This document shows positions 5,364 through 11,533 of a stretch of 43,609 nucleotides of DNA, piece by piece. The DNA is from Acidimicrobiales bacterium (GTDB lineage: Bacteria > Actinomycetota > Acidimicrobiia > Acidimicrobiales > JAHWLA01). Both the position numbers and the translations under genes were made by a program. The stretch spans positions 1-43,609 of the forward strand of contig DATLNE010000005.1 in the NCBI GenBank assembly GCA_035536915.1. Reading direction: 5' to 3'. The notes under the pieces were generated by a model. The model saw nothing but the letters and a program-made list of their open reading frames with translations. It did no database searches and was not told the origin of the DNA. The number at the start of each line of letters is the position of its first letter. Within the stretch, counting starts at the first letter, position 1.

Positions 5364-5394
5364 TTCGCGCGGCCCCAGGGTGGGAGCCCGTACC

Positions 5395-6234
5395 ATGCGT
5401 TGCATGCGGCGGTCGTTCGCGGTTCTCGGGGTGCTGTTCGCGCTCGTTGTGTCGTCCCTTTCGCCCGCAGAGGCGGCGAGGGCTGACGGCTACTGGTTCG
5501 TGGCCCGCGACGGGGGGTTGTTCGCCTTCGGCGGCGCCCGCTTCCACGGCAGTGCGGGCGGCAGCGGCCTGCCCGACCGAGTGGTGGCCATGGCGTCGAC
5601 CCCGACGGGCGAGGGCTACTGGATGGCGACGTCGTCGGGGATCATCCTCATCTACGGCGACGCCCGCTTCTACGGGAGCACCGGCGCCATCGACCTGCGC
5701 AGCCCCATCGTGGGCATGGCGGCCACGGCGTCGGGCAACGGCTACTGGCTGGTGGCGGCCGACGGCGGCATCTTCGCCTTCGGCGATGCGCCCTTCCACG
5801 GCTCGATGGGCGGCACCCCGCTGAACCGGCCCATCGTGGGCATGGCCTCCACCCCGTGGGGCGGCTACTGGATGGTGGCGTCCGACGGCGGCATCTTCAC
5901 CTTCAACGCGCCGTTCTACGGCGCCACCGGCCACATCAAGCTGAACAGCCCGATCGTGGGGATGACGTCGCGGCCCGACGGCCAGGGGTACTGGATGGTG
6001 GCGGCCGACGGCGGCATCTTCGCCTTCAACGTGCCGTTCCTGGGCTCGATGGGCGGGCACCGGTTGGTGCAGCCCGTGGTGGGCATGGCCTCGAACGGGG
6101 CGGGCGACGGCTATTGGCTCGTGGCTGCCGACGGCGGCATCTTCTCGTTCGGCAATGCCCCGTTCTACGGCTCCATCGGCGGCAAGCCGCTGAACCAGCC
6201 CATCGTCGGCATGGCGGCCCGGGCCCGGCCGTGA
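5395..6234 (+). CDS. Secreted six-repeat GYW/DGGIF protein, probably a beta-propeller
   Basis: The protein has 279 residues. A signal peptide (positively charged MRCMRRS, hydrophobic core to about 22, cleavage near AEAARA at 25-30) is followed by six tandem repeats of 41-42 residues that fill residues 32-279. Each repeat begins GYW and contains DGGIF-F, an F-GS-GG turn and PIVGMAS. Repeat 2 is the most diverged (SSGIILIYG). Such repeats are common in actinobacterial exported proteins and are usually uncharacterised; the propeller fold is inferred from repeat length and pattern. The stop overlaps the next start (GTGA), so it is translationally coupled to the MauE-like gene. By position it corresponds to mauB, whose product is a seven-bladed propeller, but no sequence homology is claimed. 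ATG 5404 is an alternative start. Confidence 0.75.
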   Translation: MRCMRRSFAVLGVLFALVVSSLSPAEAARADGYWFVARDGGLFAFGGARFHGSAGGSGLPDRVVAMASTPTGEGYWMATSSGIILIYGDARFYGSTGAIDLRSPIVGMAATASGNGYWLVAADGGIFAFGDAPFHGSMGGTPLNRPIVGMASTPWGGYWMVASDGGIFTFNAPFYGATGHIKLNSPIVGMTSRPDGQGYWMVAADGGIFAFNVPFLGSMGGHRLVQPVVGMASNGAGDGYWLVAADGGIFSFGNAPFYGSIGGKPLNQPIVGMAARARP

Positions 6235-6755
6235 ACGGGGTGGCCTACGCGGCCGCACTGGTGACGGCGGGGGTCCTGGGGTGGGCGGGCATCGCCAAGT
6301 GGCAGCGGCCCCGTGGGACTGCGGCGTCGTTCGCCGGCCTCGGGTTGCCCGCGCCGGAGACGTTGGCCCGGGCCGTGCCGTTGGCCGAGTTGGTGGTGGC
6401 TGCGCTGCTGGTGGTGGTGCCCCGGGCCGGTGCGATCGGCGCCTTCGTGCTGCTGTCGGCGTTTTCTGTGGTGCTGTTCGGCGCTGTGCGCCGGGGGACC
6501 GAGGTGGGGTGCGCCTGCTTCGGTGCGGCCAAGGCGCGGCCGGTGTCGAGCGTCGACTTGGTGCGCAATGCCGGCCTGCTCGGGTTCGCCGGCGTCGCTG
6601 CGCTCGCCGACGGGCCGACGATGCCTGCGCTGGCCGATGTCATCGCCGTGTCCACCGCGTTCGTCGGCGGGCTCGTCGTACTGCACCTGCTCGACCTGCG
6701 CCGGGCCATCGGACGGGTGTGGGACACCCGCCTGGCCGGGGAGCCGCAGCGATGA
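6231..6755 (+). CDS. MauE/DoxX-like membrane protein
   Basis: The protein has 174 residues and about four hydrophobic segments (roughly 3-21, 48-64, 67-86 and 133-155). In known mau operons MauE is a membrane protein that works with MauD in maturation (disulfide formation) of the methylamine dehydrogenase light chain. The visible signature is GCACFG at residues 93-98, a C-x-C pair at the membrane face, followed by PVSSVDLVRNAGLL, the typical MauE-type loop and helix. The GTG start overlaps the previous stop by 4 bases and the stop overlaps the next ATG by 4 bases. Together with the thioredoxin-like partner this suggests a membrane-to-periplasm redox relay. General DoxX-type assignment is firm; the MauE-like role rests on context and the Cys loop. 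Confidence 0.8.
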   Translation: MNGVAYAAALVTAGVLGWAGIAKWQRPRGTAASFAGLGLPAPETLARAVPLAELVVAALLVVVPRAGAIGAFVLLSAFSVVLFGAVRRGTEVGCACFGAAKARPVSSVDLVRNAGLLGFAGVAALADGPTMPALADVIAVSTAFVGGLVVLHLLDLRRAIGRVWDTRLAGEPQR

Positions 6756-7231
6756 GCGGCGGCGTGTGGGTTGTGTCGTACGTGCTGTTGTGGCTGGCCG
6801 TGCTCGGCCTGTCGTTTGCCGTGGTGGCGCTGCTCCGCCAGGTCGGGGTGCTGCACGCTCGCCTGCGCCCGCTGGGCACGAACATGGCGGGGGAAGGGCC
6901 GATCGCCGGGACGCCCGCCCCCCGCTCCGACCGGGTCGACTACGGCGATGCGCCGCTCACGTTGCTGGCCTTTACGTCGGAGCGGTGCGACGTGTGCCGC
7001 ACCCTGGTGCCCTCGCTGCCGTACCTCGAACGTGATTACGCGAACGACGTGCGCCTGGTGGTCCTCGACCACGGCCCGGCCACGGCGGAGATGTTCTCGG
7101 CGTTCAACGTGCACTCGACGCCCTATTTCGTGACCGTCGACCGCACCGGCGTGGTGCAGGGCGGCGGCGTGGCCAACTCGCTCGAACAGGTCGAGGTACT
7201 GGTGGAGGAATCCCTTGCTGCTACGGCGTAA
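6752..7231 (+). CDS. MauD-like membrane-anchored thioredoxin
   Basis: The protein has 159 residues. An N-terminal membrane anchor (about 5-27) leaves a thioredoxin-fold domain outside the membrane. The redox motif is C79-D-V-C82 in ERCDVCRTLVPSLPYLE, and the cis-proline segment STPYFVTVD (P124) follows. Known MauD proteins share this layout and help fold the disulfide-rich light chain of methylamine dehydrogenase. Here the gene directly precedes a protein with 12 clustered cysteines, the obvious client. It overlaps the MauE-like gene upstream (ATGA) and the next gene by 17 bases. It could instead act in cytochrome c maturation, but no such genes are nearby. Confidence 0.82.
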   Translation: MSGGVWVVSYVLLWLAVLGLSFAVVALLRQVGVLHARLRPLGTNMAGEGPIAGTPAPRSDRVDYGDAPLTLLAFTSERCDVCRTLVPSLPYLERDYANDVRLVVLDHGPATAEMFSAFNVHSTPYFVTVDRTGVVQGGGVANSLEQVEVLVEESLAATA

Positions 7232-8645
7232 GTCGTCGGTCGACGACTGGACGGAGCGGGCGGGCCGGTGGCTGGCCGGCCGCAGCACCCGCCGGTCGTT
7301 CCTGGGCCGGGCCGGGCAGTTCGCCGTGCTGGTGGCGGGCGGGCAGATGATCACCGACCTGCTGGTCGGCGATGCCGCCGAGGCGCGGGTGTGCGGCCAG
7401 TCGGGCGTGTCACCCAAGTGCGCCACCTACGACTGTGACGCCGTGTGGGGATGGTGCTGGTACGCCACCGGGTGCTGCGCCGACGGCGCCCTCAAGAAGA
7501 TCTGCGACTGCTGCGCCCACAACTGGCCGAACGTGCACGGCTACTGCCCCAGCGGCCACAACGTGAAGTGCATCGTCGAGAGCTGCGGCGCCGACCCACG
7601 CGTGATGACGCGGGAGATGGTGCGGCTGCCCTACGACGACGCCGCCGCCTTGGCCACCGCGGTCAGCTCGGTGCGCTGGCCCAAGGGCTCGGCGCCCAGC
7701 GTCGTCGTAGCGCTGGCCGATCCTGCCTACGCAGGCATGGCTGCCCCCTTCGCCGGTGCCCTGAACGTGCCGCTGCTGCTGGCCTCCGGCAACACCATCG
7801 ATGCCCGCACGGCGGCCGAGTTGCAGCGGTTGGGTGCTCGCAAGGCCACGCTGATTGGCCCGTTGTCGGCGGGCGTGGAGCACTGGCTCGGTCGCTACGG
7901 CCTCACGGTCGAGCGGTGGGGGACCGCCGGAGACGCTCCCGGCCTGTCGTCGGAGATCGCCTCGTGGATGCGCTCGACAAAGGGAGCGTCCCGCCAGTTC
8001 TGCGTCGCGGGCCACGACGTCTTCAACTTGGCCGGCGTGGCCGGAGCGGCCGCAGCCACGCAGGGCTACCCGCTGGTGATCGGCGTCGACGCTGCGGTGG
8101 CTGCCGCCACCGGCCCGCAGCCCCGTGCGCTGGTGACGCACCTGGTCGGCCCCGAGGCATCTGCAGAGGCAGGCCGCGTGCCCGGCGGCTACCGACTGGT
8201 GGCGCCCGGTTTGGAGGGGGCGTCGGCTCGCGTCGCCCGCGCCCTCGTGGTGGAAGGCGCTCGCCCCACCGGCGTGGCCGTGGTGCCTGCCGCTGCCGCC
8301 GGGGCCTCGGCGGGCCTGGCCGGCGTCGGTGGCCCCGTGCTGTTCCACGTGCCCGGAGCCCTCGACGGTGCACGCGATTCCCTGTTCGCCATCCGAGACT
8401 CCTTGCGCCGGGTGGTAGCGGGCGGCGCCAACGGGGCGCTGTCGAGCGGGGGCATCTACGAGCTCCAGTCGATCGTCAACGGGTTCGAGGCCCACAAGCT
8501 CATCGGCGTCGGCGGCCAAGGGCTGCCCGTCATCACCCAGCCGGAGTCGGAACGCCCGCTCGGGCGCGCCCGCGTGGCATCGGCCGCGCCCGAAGAACCG
8601 GCGCGGGGCTACTGGACGGGACGGGCGGAGCCCGGCGACGGCTGA
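7215..8645 (+). CDS. Tat-exported Cys-rich protein: methylamine dehydrogenase light-chain-like domain plus CWB2-like repeats
   Basis: The protein has 476 residues. A twin-arginine signal (S-T-R26-R27-S-F-L, hydrophobic stretch 35-51) is followed by a 12-cysteine domain (C60-C124), rich in Trp near 78-82. From memory of MauA sequences, the pattern CD-W-C then ICDC then CP-G then SC parallels its first half, and MauA also has 12 cysteines. The Trp that forms tryptophan tryptophylquinone in MauA (SWVASC) is not kept (KCIVESC), and the second quinone Trp region is absent. Residues 150-435 hold about three cell-wall-binding (CWB2-like) repeats with PLLLASG and RLGARKATLIG. The TTG start overlaps the MauD-like gene by 17 bases. 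It is probably a structural or redox surface protein matured by MauD/E homologues, not a functional methylamine dehydrogenase. Confidence 0.65.
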   Translation: MLLRRKSSVDDWTERAGRWLAGRSTRRSFLGRAGQFAVLVAGGQMITDLLVGDAAEARVCGQSGVSPKCATYDCDAVWGWCWYATGCCADGALKKICDCCAHNWPNVHGYCPSGHNVKCIVESCGADPRVMTREMVRLPYDDAAALATAVSSVRWPKGSAPSVVVALADPAYAGMAAPFAGALNVPLLLASGNTIDARTAAELQRLGARKATLIGPLSAGVEHWLGRYGLTVERWGTAGDAPGLSSEIASWMRSTKGASRQFCVAGHDVFNLAGVAGAAAATQGYPLVIGVDAAVAAATGPQPRALVTHLVGPEASAEAGRVPGGYRLVAPGLEGASARVARALVVEGARPTGVAVVPAAAAGASAGLAGVGGPVLFHVPGALDGARDSLFAIRDSLRRVVAGGANGALSSGGIYELQSIVNGFEAHKLIGVGGQGLPVITQPESERPLGRARVASAAPEEPARGYWTGRAEPGDG

Positions 8646-8712
8646 CGTGGGCGCCGTCGCCCTGGTCCTGGCGTTGTTGGCCGCGGTGCGAGCGCTGTGG
8701 TCGCCCTGAGGC

Positions 8713-9894
8713 TTGTCGATCACCGAAACGGTGACGCCCTCCGTGCGGGGGCTTGAGCGAGTGCGAGTGACGATCCTCCTGGCCCTGGCGGCGGGCGCCA
8801 CTGGCGCGCTCGCCGGGTTCGTGGTGGGCGCGGCGTGGACGGGCTTCGGCCTTCCGGGCGCGTCGGAGCCAGTCGCCGCCCTCGTCGTGGCGGTCGCTGT
8901 CGTGCTCGACCTGGTTGGGCGCCCTCGGCCGGCGGCGGTGCACCGACAGGTGCCCCAGGCGTGGGCGCGCGTGTTCCCGATCAGGGTCGCCGCCGTCCTG
9001 TACGGCGCGCGCCTTGGCGTCGGTCCGCTGACGATCCTGTCGACCTGGCTGTGGTGGGCCGCGTTCGTGCTCGGCGCCACCGCGGGGCCGTGGTGGTCGA
9101 GTGCCGTCGGAGCAGCCTTCGGCCTGGGGCGCGTGGCCGTGATGGTGGCGGTGTCGGCCCGAGTGGAGGGCGACATGTCCGCCCGAATGGCGCAGGTGCG
9201 CGGGCGCGAGCGGGTCGGTCGCCCGCTGGCCCTCGTCGGCGCCGTGGTCGCGGTCGCCGTTCTGCTGGCGGCGTGCACCAGCGGAGGCGACAAACGAAGC
9301 GCCGATCGCAACGGAGGGGACGACGACGGGAGGGGCACGTCCACGAGCGCCGCACCGCCGCCGCCGACGATCCCGGCGAGTCCCGTCAACGGCGCCCTGA
9401 TGCTCGACGACCTGGGGCCGGACTGGACACGGGTGCCCGACACCCGCGCCGGCCTGGGGCCGCTCGACCTGGAGGCGGCGGCCAAGGCCGAGGTCGACAC
9501 ATCGGCGGAGCGGTCGCTGTTGGAGACCCGAGGCTTCAAGGCGGGCTTGGCCCGGGCGTGGCGCAACCAAGCGGGCGACGAGCTGTACCAGGCGGTGTAC
9601 GAGTTCCGCGACGAAGCGAGCGCCGCGGCGTACCTGCAGGACGGCCTGATCAACCTCGAAGGTCGCGGCTCCGCCCGCTACGAGGTCGAGGGCGTGCCAG
9701 GCGCCACGGGGTTCAGCCAGGCCGAGCGACGCCCCGACGGGGCGGTCACGTCGCACGGGTTGGCCTTCGTGCGGGGCCATCGGTTCTTCCTCCTCTTCCT
9801 GGCGAGTGCGAGGCCAGGGACGACCCCGGCGGCGGTGGCGGAGTTCGGCCGAGCAGCCGACGCCAAGCGGGCAGCGTCGGCCGCACCGGCCTGA
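8713..9894 (+). CDS. Membrane protein fused to a lipoprotein-like domain, unknown function
   Basis: I do not recognise this 393-residue protein. Residues 1-150 hold about four hydrophobic segments (18-41, 52-68, 88-122, 126-148). Residues 168-188 look like a lipoprotein signal ending in the lipobox LLAAC (C188), followed by a low-complexity linker rich in Asp, Gly and Pro and an exported-type domain (about 228-393). ATG 9175 (M155), preceded by GGAGGG, could independently start a lipoprotein, but no stop separates the halves. The TTG start is weak; GTG 8767 is an alternative. It follows the mau-like operon with a 67-base gap, so its membrane half could be a further part of that redox system (mau operons have a membrane protein, MauF). 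That is speculation. Confidence 0.55.
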   Translation: MSITETVTPSVRGLERVRVTILLALAAGATGALAGFVVGAAWTGFGLPGASEPVAALVVAVAVVLDLVGRPRPAAVHRQVPQAWARVFPIRVAAVLYGARLGVGPLTILSTWLWWAAFVLGATAGPWWSSAVGAAFGLGRVAVMVAVSARVEGDMSARMAQVRGRERVGRPLALVGAVVAVAVLLAACTSGGDKRSADRNGGDDDGRGTSTSAAPPPPTIPASPVNGALMLDDLGPDWTRVPDTRAGLGPLDLEAAAKAEVDTSAERSLLETRGFKAGLARAWRNQAGDELYQAVYEFRDEASAAAYLQDGLINLEGRGSARYEVEGVPGATGFSQAERRPDGAVTSHGLAFVRGHRFFLLFLASARPGTTPAAVAEFGRAADAKRAASAAPA

Positions 9895-10745: not shown

Positions 10746-10771
10746 TTCCACACAGGTTGTCAAGAGGCGCG

Positions 10772-11533
10772 ATGCTGGATCACATGACGCCCGAGGCGGA
10801 GCAGGCGAAGGCGTGGGTGGACGAGGCCAAGGCGATCACCGTCCTCACCGGCGCCGGCATCTCCACCGACTCGGGCATCCCCGACTTCCGGGGCCCGCAG
10901 GGCGTGTGGACCAAGAACCCCGCCGCCGAGCGGGCCTCCACCCTCGAGCACTACCTCAACGAACCCGAGGTGCGGCGGGCGGCGTGGCAGGCCCGGCTTC
11001 ACTCGCCTGCGTGGGAGGCCCAGCCCAACGCCGGCCACCGCGCCCTCGTCGCCCTCGAACAGCGGGGCAAGCTGCACACCCTCGTCACCCAGAACATCGA
11101 CGAACTCCACCAGCAGGCGGGCAACAGCGCCGACAAGATCGTGGAGATCCACGGCACCATGCGCCAGGTGGCGTGTTGGTCGTGCGGCGAGCGGGCGCCT
11201 ATGGAGCGGGCGCTGGAGCGCGTGCGCAACGGCGAAGACGATCCTGCGTGCCGCACCTGCGGCGGCATCCTCAAGTCGGCCACCATCAGCTTCGGCCAGG
11301 ACCTGGTGGCCGACGACCTGCGCCGGGCCGAACGGGCCGCCCTCGCGTGCGACCTCCTCCTCGCCGTCGGCTCAACCCTGACGGTCTACCCGGCCGCCGC
11401 CGTCGTGCCACTGGCCAAGCAGGCGGGCGCCCGCATCGTCATCGTCAACGGGGAGGCCACGGCCATGGACCACCTGGCCGACGTCGTCCTCCGCGGCCCG
11501 ATCAGCGAACTGCTACCGCACATCGTCGGCTGA
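10772..11533 (+). CDS. cobB: Sirtuin-family NAD-dependent protein deacylase
   Basis: It removes acyl groups from protein lysines using NAD, making nicotinamide and O-acyl-ADP-ribose. The 253-residue protein has the NAD-binding motif TGAGISTDSGIPDFRG near residues 26-41, the TQNIDELH motif, the catalytic His in EIHGTM, and a zinc module of two Cys pairs (CWSC and CRTC). The late GSTLTVYPAA and VNGEATAMD segments complete the Rossmann fold. In bacteria such enzymes often activate acetyl- and propionyl-CoA synthetases, which would suit the acyl-CoA genes in this window; that link is inference. The starts at 10772 and 10784 are both possible. The 3' end overlaps the convergent nitroreductase gene by 21 bases. 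Confidence 0.92.
   Translation: MLDHMTPEAEQAKAWVDEAKAITVLTGAGISTDSGIPDFRGPQGVWTKNPAAERASTLEHYLNEPEVRRAAWQARLHSPAWEAQPNAGHRALVALEQRGKLHTLVTQNIDELHQQAGNSADKIVEIHGTMRQVACWSCGERAPMERALERVRNGEDDPACRTCGGILKSATISFGQDLVADDLRRAERAALACDLLLAVGSTLTVYPAAAVVPLAKQAGARIVIVNGEATAMDHLADVVLRGPISELLPHIVG

Follow-up and report, generated by a model that had tools for sequence, protein, structure and literature searches.

A putative family of selenocysteine-containing, DsbD/CcdA-like membrane proteins in Actinomycetota

Described relatives and the membrane domain

Carriers of the CcdA type work with two membrane cysteines, and both are present in each of the local CcdA-type proteins compared here. Among predicted bacterial selenoproteins, the entries of a 2026 catalogue include TsoB, described as rhodanese/DsbD fusion-like (NF045694), and another membrane entry, YeeE/YedE (PF04143) (PMC13188914). 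The locus reported here shares with them a predicted selenocysteine (Sec) and, with TsoB, a likeness to DsbD. However, the motifs listed for these entries (UxxxxU; GUxSG) differ from the SPUG[LE]S of our family, which is set apart from them by these descriptions and by NCBIfam (PMC13188914). None of the 119 families or subfamilies in Table 1 of the catalogue fits by name and motif (PMC13188914). In NCBIfam of June 2026, no model scored over its cut-off for the protein studied (best chance-level match, E 0.0028), and a plasmid tblastn search gave no match. A search of the published literature, covering articles proper as distinct from supplementary files, returned nothing recognisable as this selenoprotein family, and PMC9312934 held no match to the terms searched. 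On these sources we rate the family as new and its kind of protein as known; it was not found listed among known selenoproteins.

The gene lies in a window of 43,609 nucleotides, by which we mean the whole stretch of DNA analysed, from an Acidimicrobiales bacterium (Table 1). The original prediction described a large ORF (8713–9894) preceded by a 20-codon hydrophobic ORF (8647–8709), with an internal ATG at 9175, a GGAGGG ribosome site at 9165–9170 and a lipobox LLAAC, and all these elements are present. The two ORFs share one frame, and their sole divider is the TGA at 8707–8709; codon 8713, a TTG in the window, lies one codon past it. A candidate start codon, GTG 8647, sits just past the stop of the preceding gene. 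The lipobox cysteine (codon 9274–9276) is C188 when counted from 8713 and C210 when counted from 8647, the numbering used below.

Table 1. Features of the locus, in window coordinates
Feature	Position	Strand	Basis
MauE gene, CACFG motif, predicted start	6231..6755	+	PF07291, 75 bits (cut-off 27)
MauD-like membrane-anchored thioredoxin, CDVC	6752..7231	+	TIGR02661, 66.1 bits (cut-off 188.6); PF00085, 24.3 bits (cut-off 23.5)
Cys-rich methylamine-dehydrogenase-light-chain-like protein with long extra domain	7215..8645	+	TIGR02659, 22.8 bits, E 6.9e-5 (cut-off 196.85)
Putative selenoprotein gene, GTG start to TGA stop, UGA 8707-8709 as Sec21, 415 residues	8647..9894	+	Read-through translation; frame conserved across TGA
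20-codon ORF, predicted first membrane helix, ends LWSP before Sec	8647..8706	+	Low-confidence model, helix 2-17
TGA codon for predicted Sec21	8707..8709	+	TGA in 17/17 clade members
SECIS-like hairpin GCCCTC-CGTGC-GGGGGC, apical loop 32 nt past TGA	8736..8752	+	Scan; covariation; invariant loop G, 44/44
GGAGGG and ATG, proposed internal start	9165..9177	+	Unconserved
Predicted last membrane helix, ends in lipobox LLAAC (C210)	9220..9276	+	Lipobox-like Cys in 8/10 fused relatives
Predicted exported C-terminal domain	9277..9891	+	Fused in window; separate gene in two relatives (L003, G018)

With read-through of the TGA, the N-terminal part comprises about 210 residues. A model built from two sequences (window and L003), of poor quality (mean pLDDT 50.4), tentatively places helices at 2–17, 36–66, 74–90, 112–123/127–146, 148–182 and 192–210. 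Over the 58 members of profile A2 (taken from the 142 motif-filtered rows defined below), P20, Sec/Cys21, G22, Q101, W106, G120, G124 and T129 are invariant. Sec/Cys21 is the only conserved column of its kind, the next best cysteine column being occupied in 5/58, and 86 of 142 members lack any further cysteine in the next 175 residues. DsbD_2 matches nine and DsbD_TM six of the 58 members at E up to 0.1 (best, 1e-10). An hhalign comparison with 22 local CcdA-type proteins gave a probability of 52.5% (E 1.4e-4), with S-P-C aligned to S-P-U. A PDB profile search returned one meaningless match (E 2.1). On these sequence comparisons, the membrane domain is DsbD/CcdA-like, as indicated by its similar length, the aligned motif and the members that match. 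We do not count it as a member of the DsbD/CcdA family, because the window protein matches neither PF02683 nor PF13386 at E up to 1 and the second carrier cysteine of CcdA has no conserved counterpart.

Probable recoding of the in-frame UGA

The family is common: profile A1, built from three read-through domains, matches 102 of 397 genomes sampled from the window's order and 53 of 396 from its phylum, some of them weakly. We read 150 rows from 149 genomes, leaving out second weak matches of G397 and G492. The site is readable in 145 relatives, where it is TGA in 99 and a cysteine codon in 46; the five unreadable rows are G001, which has no gene start, and G171, G371, G645 and G500. These five failed the motif filter together with three TGA rows carrying D-P before the site (G603, G612, G594). 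The Fisher test and SECIS counts below use the 142 remaining rows, from 141 genomes (G286 is present twice), with 96 TGA, 33 TGC and 13 TGT codons (46 cysteine codons in all). An in-frame UGA thus stands where relatives carry cysteine.

The surroundings of the site are conserved at the protein level. Each of the seven operon homologues examined at the outset, window included, has a hydrophobic stretch that closes with R[STA]LWSP, then TGA, then GLS[VI][AT]ET. In the window's clade, taken as 17 members including the window and omitting G625, a near-copy of G025, every member has TGA, flanked by the conserved coding sequence LWSP*GLSVAET; W, S and P before it and G, L and S after it are each found in 17/17, with synonymous variation (four codons for Ser(-2), four for Gly(+1), five for Leu(+2)). 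Three main subfamilies are seen, with LWSP[U]GLSVAET (window), RSTWSP[U or C]G[EL]SMLS and STLFGP[U]GLSMVET. A sequencing error or a pseudogene stop was considered for TGA 8707–8709 and is excluded, since the same TGA recurs in many genomes.

Bacterial SECIS elements are constrained to a loop of 3–9 nucleotides with a G in its first two positions, a spacing of 16–37 nt and an energy of at most -7.5 kcal/mol, as given in the catalogue (PMC13188914). The window hairpin lies within these bounds, with a spacing of 32 nt and -9.0 kcal/mol. Under the same constraints, a hairpin 3' of the site is found in 86/96 TGA members versus 7/46 cysteine members; in 76 of those 86 the spacing is 32–33 nt, and their commonest loops are GGG, GUC, GGU, GGUC and CGUGC. 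The mean folding energy over 48 nt is -20.6 kcal/mol for TGA, -15.1 for TGC and -13.9 for TGT rows.

Covariation was counted in 44 of the 96 TGA rows, picked for diversity. In these, the six-pair stem is 90.9% paired versus 69.8% in shuffles, sliding the stem partners cuts pairing to at most 57.2%, and the loop G is invariant. Doubly changed cells number 53 versus 18.3 in shuffles, with none of 500 shuffles as high, the shuffles being of a kind that does not preserve relatedness. Two of the five covariation measures are weak: pairs with a double change (4 versus 4.0 in shuffles, 468/500) and pair types (13 versus 10.7, 15/500). Against synonymous shuffles, the region in the window itself does not stand out (z -0.39; hairpin rank 0.05); a rank of 0.05 or better is reached by a third of TGA members and 2% of cysteine members. 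Rfam over 8640–8900 gave no SECIS match and one chance match (E 2.1) to another family.

The genome of the window holds selA, selB, selD and tRNA-Sec, all over cut-off: SelA at 325.7 bits, the adjoining SelB at 249.1 bits (cut-off 242.25), SelD at 323.7 bits, and a tRNA-Sec with anticodon TCA (UCA) at 65.5 bits. In 14 control genomes, the corresponding numbers over cut-off are 2, 2, 2 and 5. SelA occurs in the genomes of 92/96 TGA rows versus 9/46 cysteine rows (Fisher p 4.3e-21, a value that treats relatives as independent). This association is supportive but confounded by descent, because the tree requires just three Sec/Cys changes; the resulting two to three independent pairs are too few for a test. 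Four TGA rows come from genomes with no SelA match (G018, G622, G169 and G124, which are 96, 68, 83 and 90% complete, respectively), and G018 has a tRNA-Sec over cut-off.

Taken together, the invariant TGA, the Sec/Cys exchange, the covarying SECIS-like hairpin and the Sec machinery of the genome make it very probable that 8647–9894 is one gene encoding a selenoprotein. The opposite reading is that the TGA is an ordinary stop, closing a conserved 20-codon hydrophobic leader or microprotein before a separately initiated membrane protein. It draws on the TTG that directly follows the TGA in the window and on the frequency of short ORFs before genes, and a leader was indeed suggested in the original prediction. 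Yet Leu(+2), which corresponds to codon 8713, is a start-capable codon in just 1 of the 17 clade members, the cysteine forms carry the same motif in an uninterrupted protein, and the hairpin and its covariation also speak against a plain stop. We therefore regard an ordinary stop as very improbable and reject the leader, since the frame is continuous and the Leu(+2) codons are mostly no start codons; the 20 codons are better read as encoding the first helix of that protein, which the conserved in-frame TGA follows. Insertion of cysteine or tryptophan by a suppressor or near-cognate tRNA would agree with the cysteine found at this site in other relatives. Against it stand the complete Sec machinery of the genome, with its TCA-anticodon tRNA-Sec, and the tie between the hairpin and the TGA forms, which leave such a read-through hardly credible. 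Selenocysteine insertion is thus the reading retained below.

The exported domain and its lipobox

Pfam gave nothing over cut-off for the C-terminal domain, which is probably exported. Its fusion to the membrane part exceeds chance, the same two parts being fused in 10 of the 142 relatives read. L003 and G018 encode the domain in a separate gene downstream, and this form has its own membrane anchor and no lipobox. On comparison of these sequences, the exported domain is a lineage-specific fusion. The choice originally offered, a true fusion or two products from one frame, is thereby partly settled: the fusion is supported, and internal initiation finds no support in conservation of its start. 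Separate homologous genes, whose existence had been left to be checked, are found in these two genomes, so the homologues are not always fused; nor is the lipidation cysteine generally missing.

In the window, LLAAC with its cysteine follows a hydrophobic helix, as in a lipoprotein signal, and two explanations of it can be weighed. The exported part may additionally be made alone as a lipoprotein from ATG 9175, which in the window has GGAGG 5 nt upstream, a basic n-region and LLAAC; the occurrence of the domain as a separate gene and of a lipobox-like cysteine in 8 of 10 fused proteins would fit. However, this ATG with its GGAGG is found in the window alone among the ten. Six of the nine other fused relatives have no candidate internal start, and the remaining candidates are a weaker GTG in G272 (GAGG 8 nt upstream, 37 aa before the cysteine), a distant start in G213 (57 aa) and one in G187 with GAGG just 2 nt away. 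The same-genus relative G001 keeps LLAAC and lacks this ATG, the separate forms are anchored without a lipobox, and two fused proteins, G014 and G187, also lack one. An additional product of this kind is accordingly improbable. Alternatively, the last helix may act as an internal lipoprotein signal, with signal peptidase II cutting before C210 and releasing the exported domain. A lipobox-like cysteine closes the last helix in the same eight fused proteins versus a loose match, anywhere in the stretch, in 5 of 132 others; a linker cysteine of G187 that fits the loose pattern is excluded from the count. On the other side, seven of the eight come from one genome family (f17), so that few independent events are represented, and G014 and G187 have no such cysteine. 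This processing is a possibility that we hold tentatively. We favour one polypeptide, perhaps with an internal lipoprotein signal, over internal initiation, because the ATG and ribosome site of the window are unconserved and the lipobox cysteine is recurrent.

In G001 (L002 / L044, 3198–4355), the first half of the membrane domain is lost, and with it the Sec site; the last helices, the lipobox and the exported domain are kept. The genes between the aminopeptidase and the truncated gene are also gone there, which may reflect decay or an assembly fault; this genome (76% complete) has no SelA match and has a tRNA-Sec. Genome G014 has a second copy of the exported domain, a partial one (L030, G014:C66, 215–577); ahead of it, in a different frame, are DGGVFTFGDARFHGS-type repeats resembling those at 5380–6234 of the window. 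Four cysteine forms (L119, L133, L139, L142) have a different long C-terminal domain that looks exported by eye.

The mau-type neighbourhood and a proposed role

The MauE, MauD-like and light-chain-like genes lie directly upstream of the selenoprotein gene; the PF07291 match was located in the window ORF 5856–6752, at residues 130–250. A light-chain-like relative is found on the same strand, within the fetched flank, in 34 of 142 members, namely every row of the window's clade (18) and of the FGP-type clade (16). In the Sec form G456, an FGP member, a C-terminal extension is a MauE domain (70.7 bits, over cut-off). Extensions with a CGC[FL]G motif are seen in seven members of that clade (L121, L129, L130, L131, L135, L137 and L140), of which one (L131, that is, G456) was tested and six were judged similar by eye. 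The likeness to a mau cluster thus lies in a MauE over cut-off, in the MauD-like and light-chain-like genes and in the MauE fusion. It differs in that both the MauD-like and the light-chain-like protein stay far under their cut-offs and the light-chain-like one has a long extra domain, so methylamine oxidation should not be assumed. As far as gene context can indicate, this neighbourhood suggests a part in the redox handling of Cys-rich exported proteins. Just upstream of mauE (window 5380–6234) is a predicted exported protein of GYWxVAxDGGIFxFGxAxFxGS repeats with no Pfam match over cut-off, and further on (10757–11533) a frame resembles, by eye, what we take to be a sirtuin-type deacylase (GAGISTDSGIPDFRGPQG).

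In the mechanism that we propose, ribosomes would start near GTG 8647 and make the first membrane helix. The UGA would then be decoded as selenocysteine through the hairpin 32 nt downstream, SelB and tRNA-Sec. Translation would continue over the remainder of a DsbD/CcdA-like domain of roughly six helices and into the exported domain fused in this lineage. Sec21 may be the redox centre, and the selenoprotein, MauE (CACFG) and the MauD-like thioredoxin (CDVC) may act as a relay by which disulfides in the Cys-rich light-chain-like protein are formed or repaired on the outer side of the membrane. We infer both the direction of electron flow and the choice of MauE as source of the partner cysteine. 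A role in such a disulfide relay seems reasonably probable. A fuller picture can be drawn, in which an overlooked large Actinomycetota family, membrane-embedded and using one Sec where CcdA has two cysteines, drives disulfide chemistry in exported, Cys-rich proteins of the mau type. The UGA-recoded frame of the window's lineage would encode a lipoprotein as well, its last helix being the signal cut by signal peptidase II to free the exported domain. All this together is rather unlikely to hold.

Ordinary gene finders would shorten or mis-start the genes of this family, the UGA being some 20 codons from the start. If confirmed, a polytopic membrane redox protein would join the known selenoproteins, and a role of selenium in the handling of exported Cys-rich proteins would be indicated. 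Besides, the family would then offer a natural set of Sec and Cys forms for asking why selenium is used.
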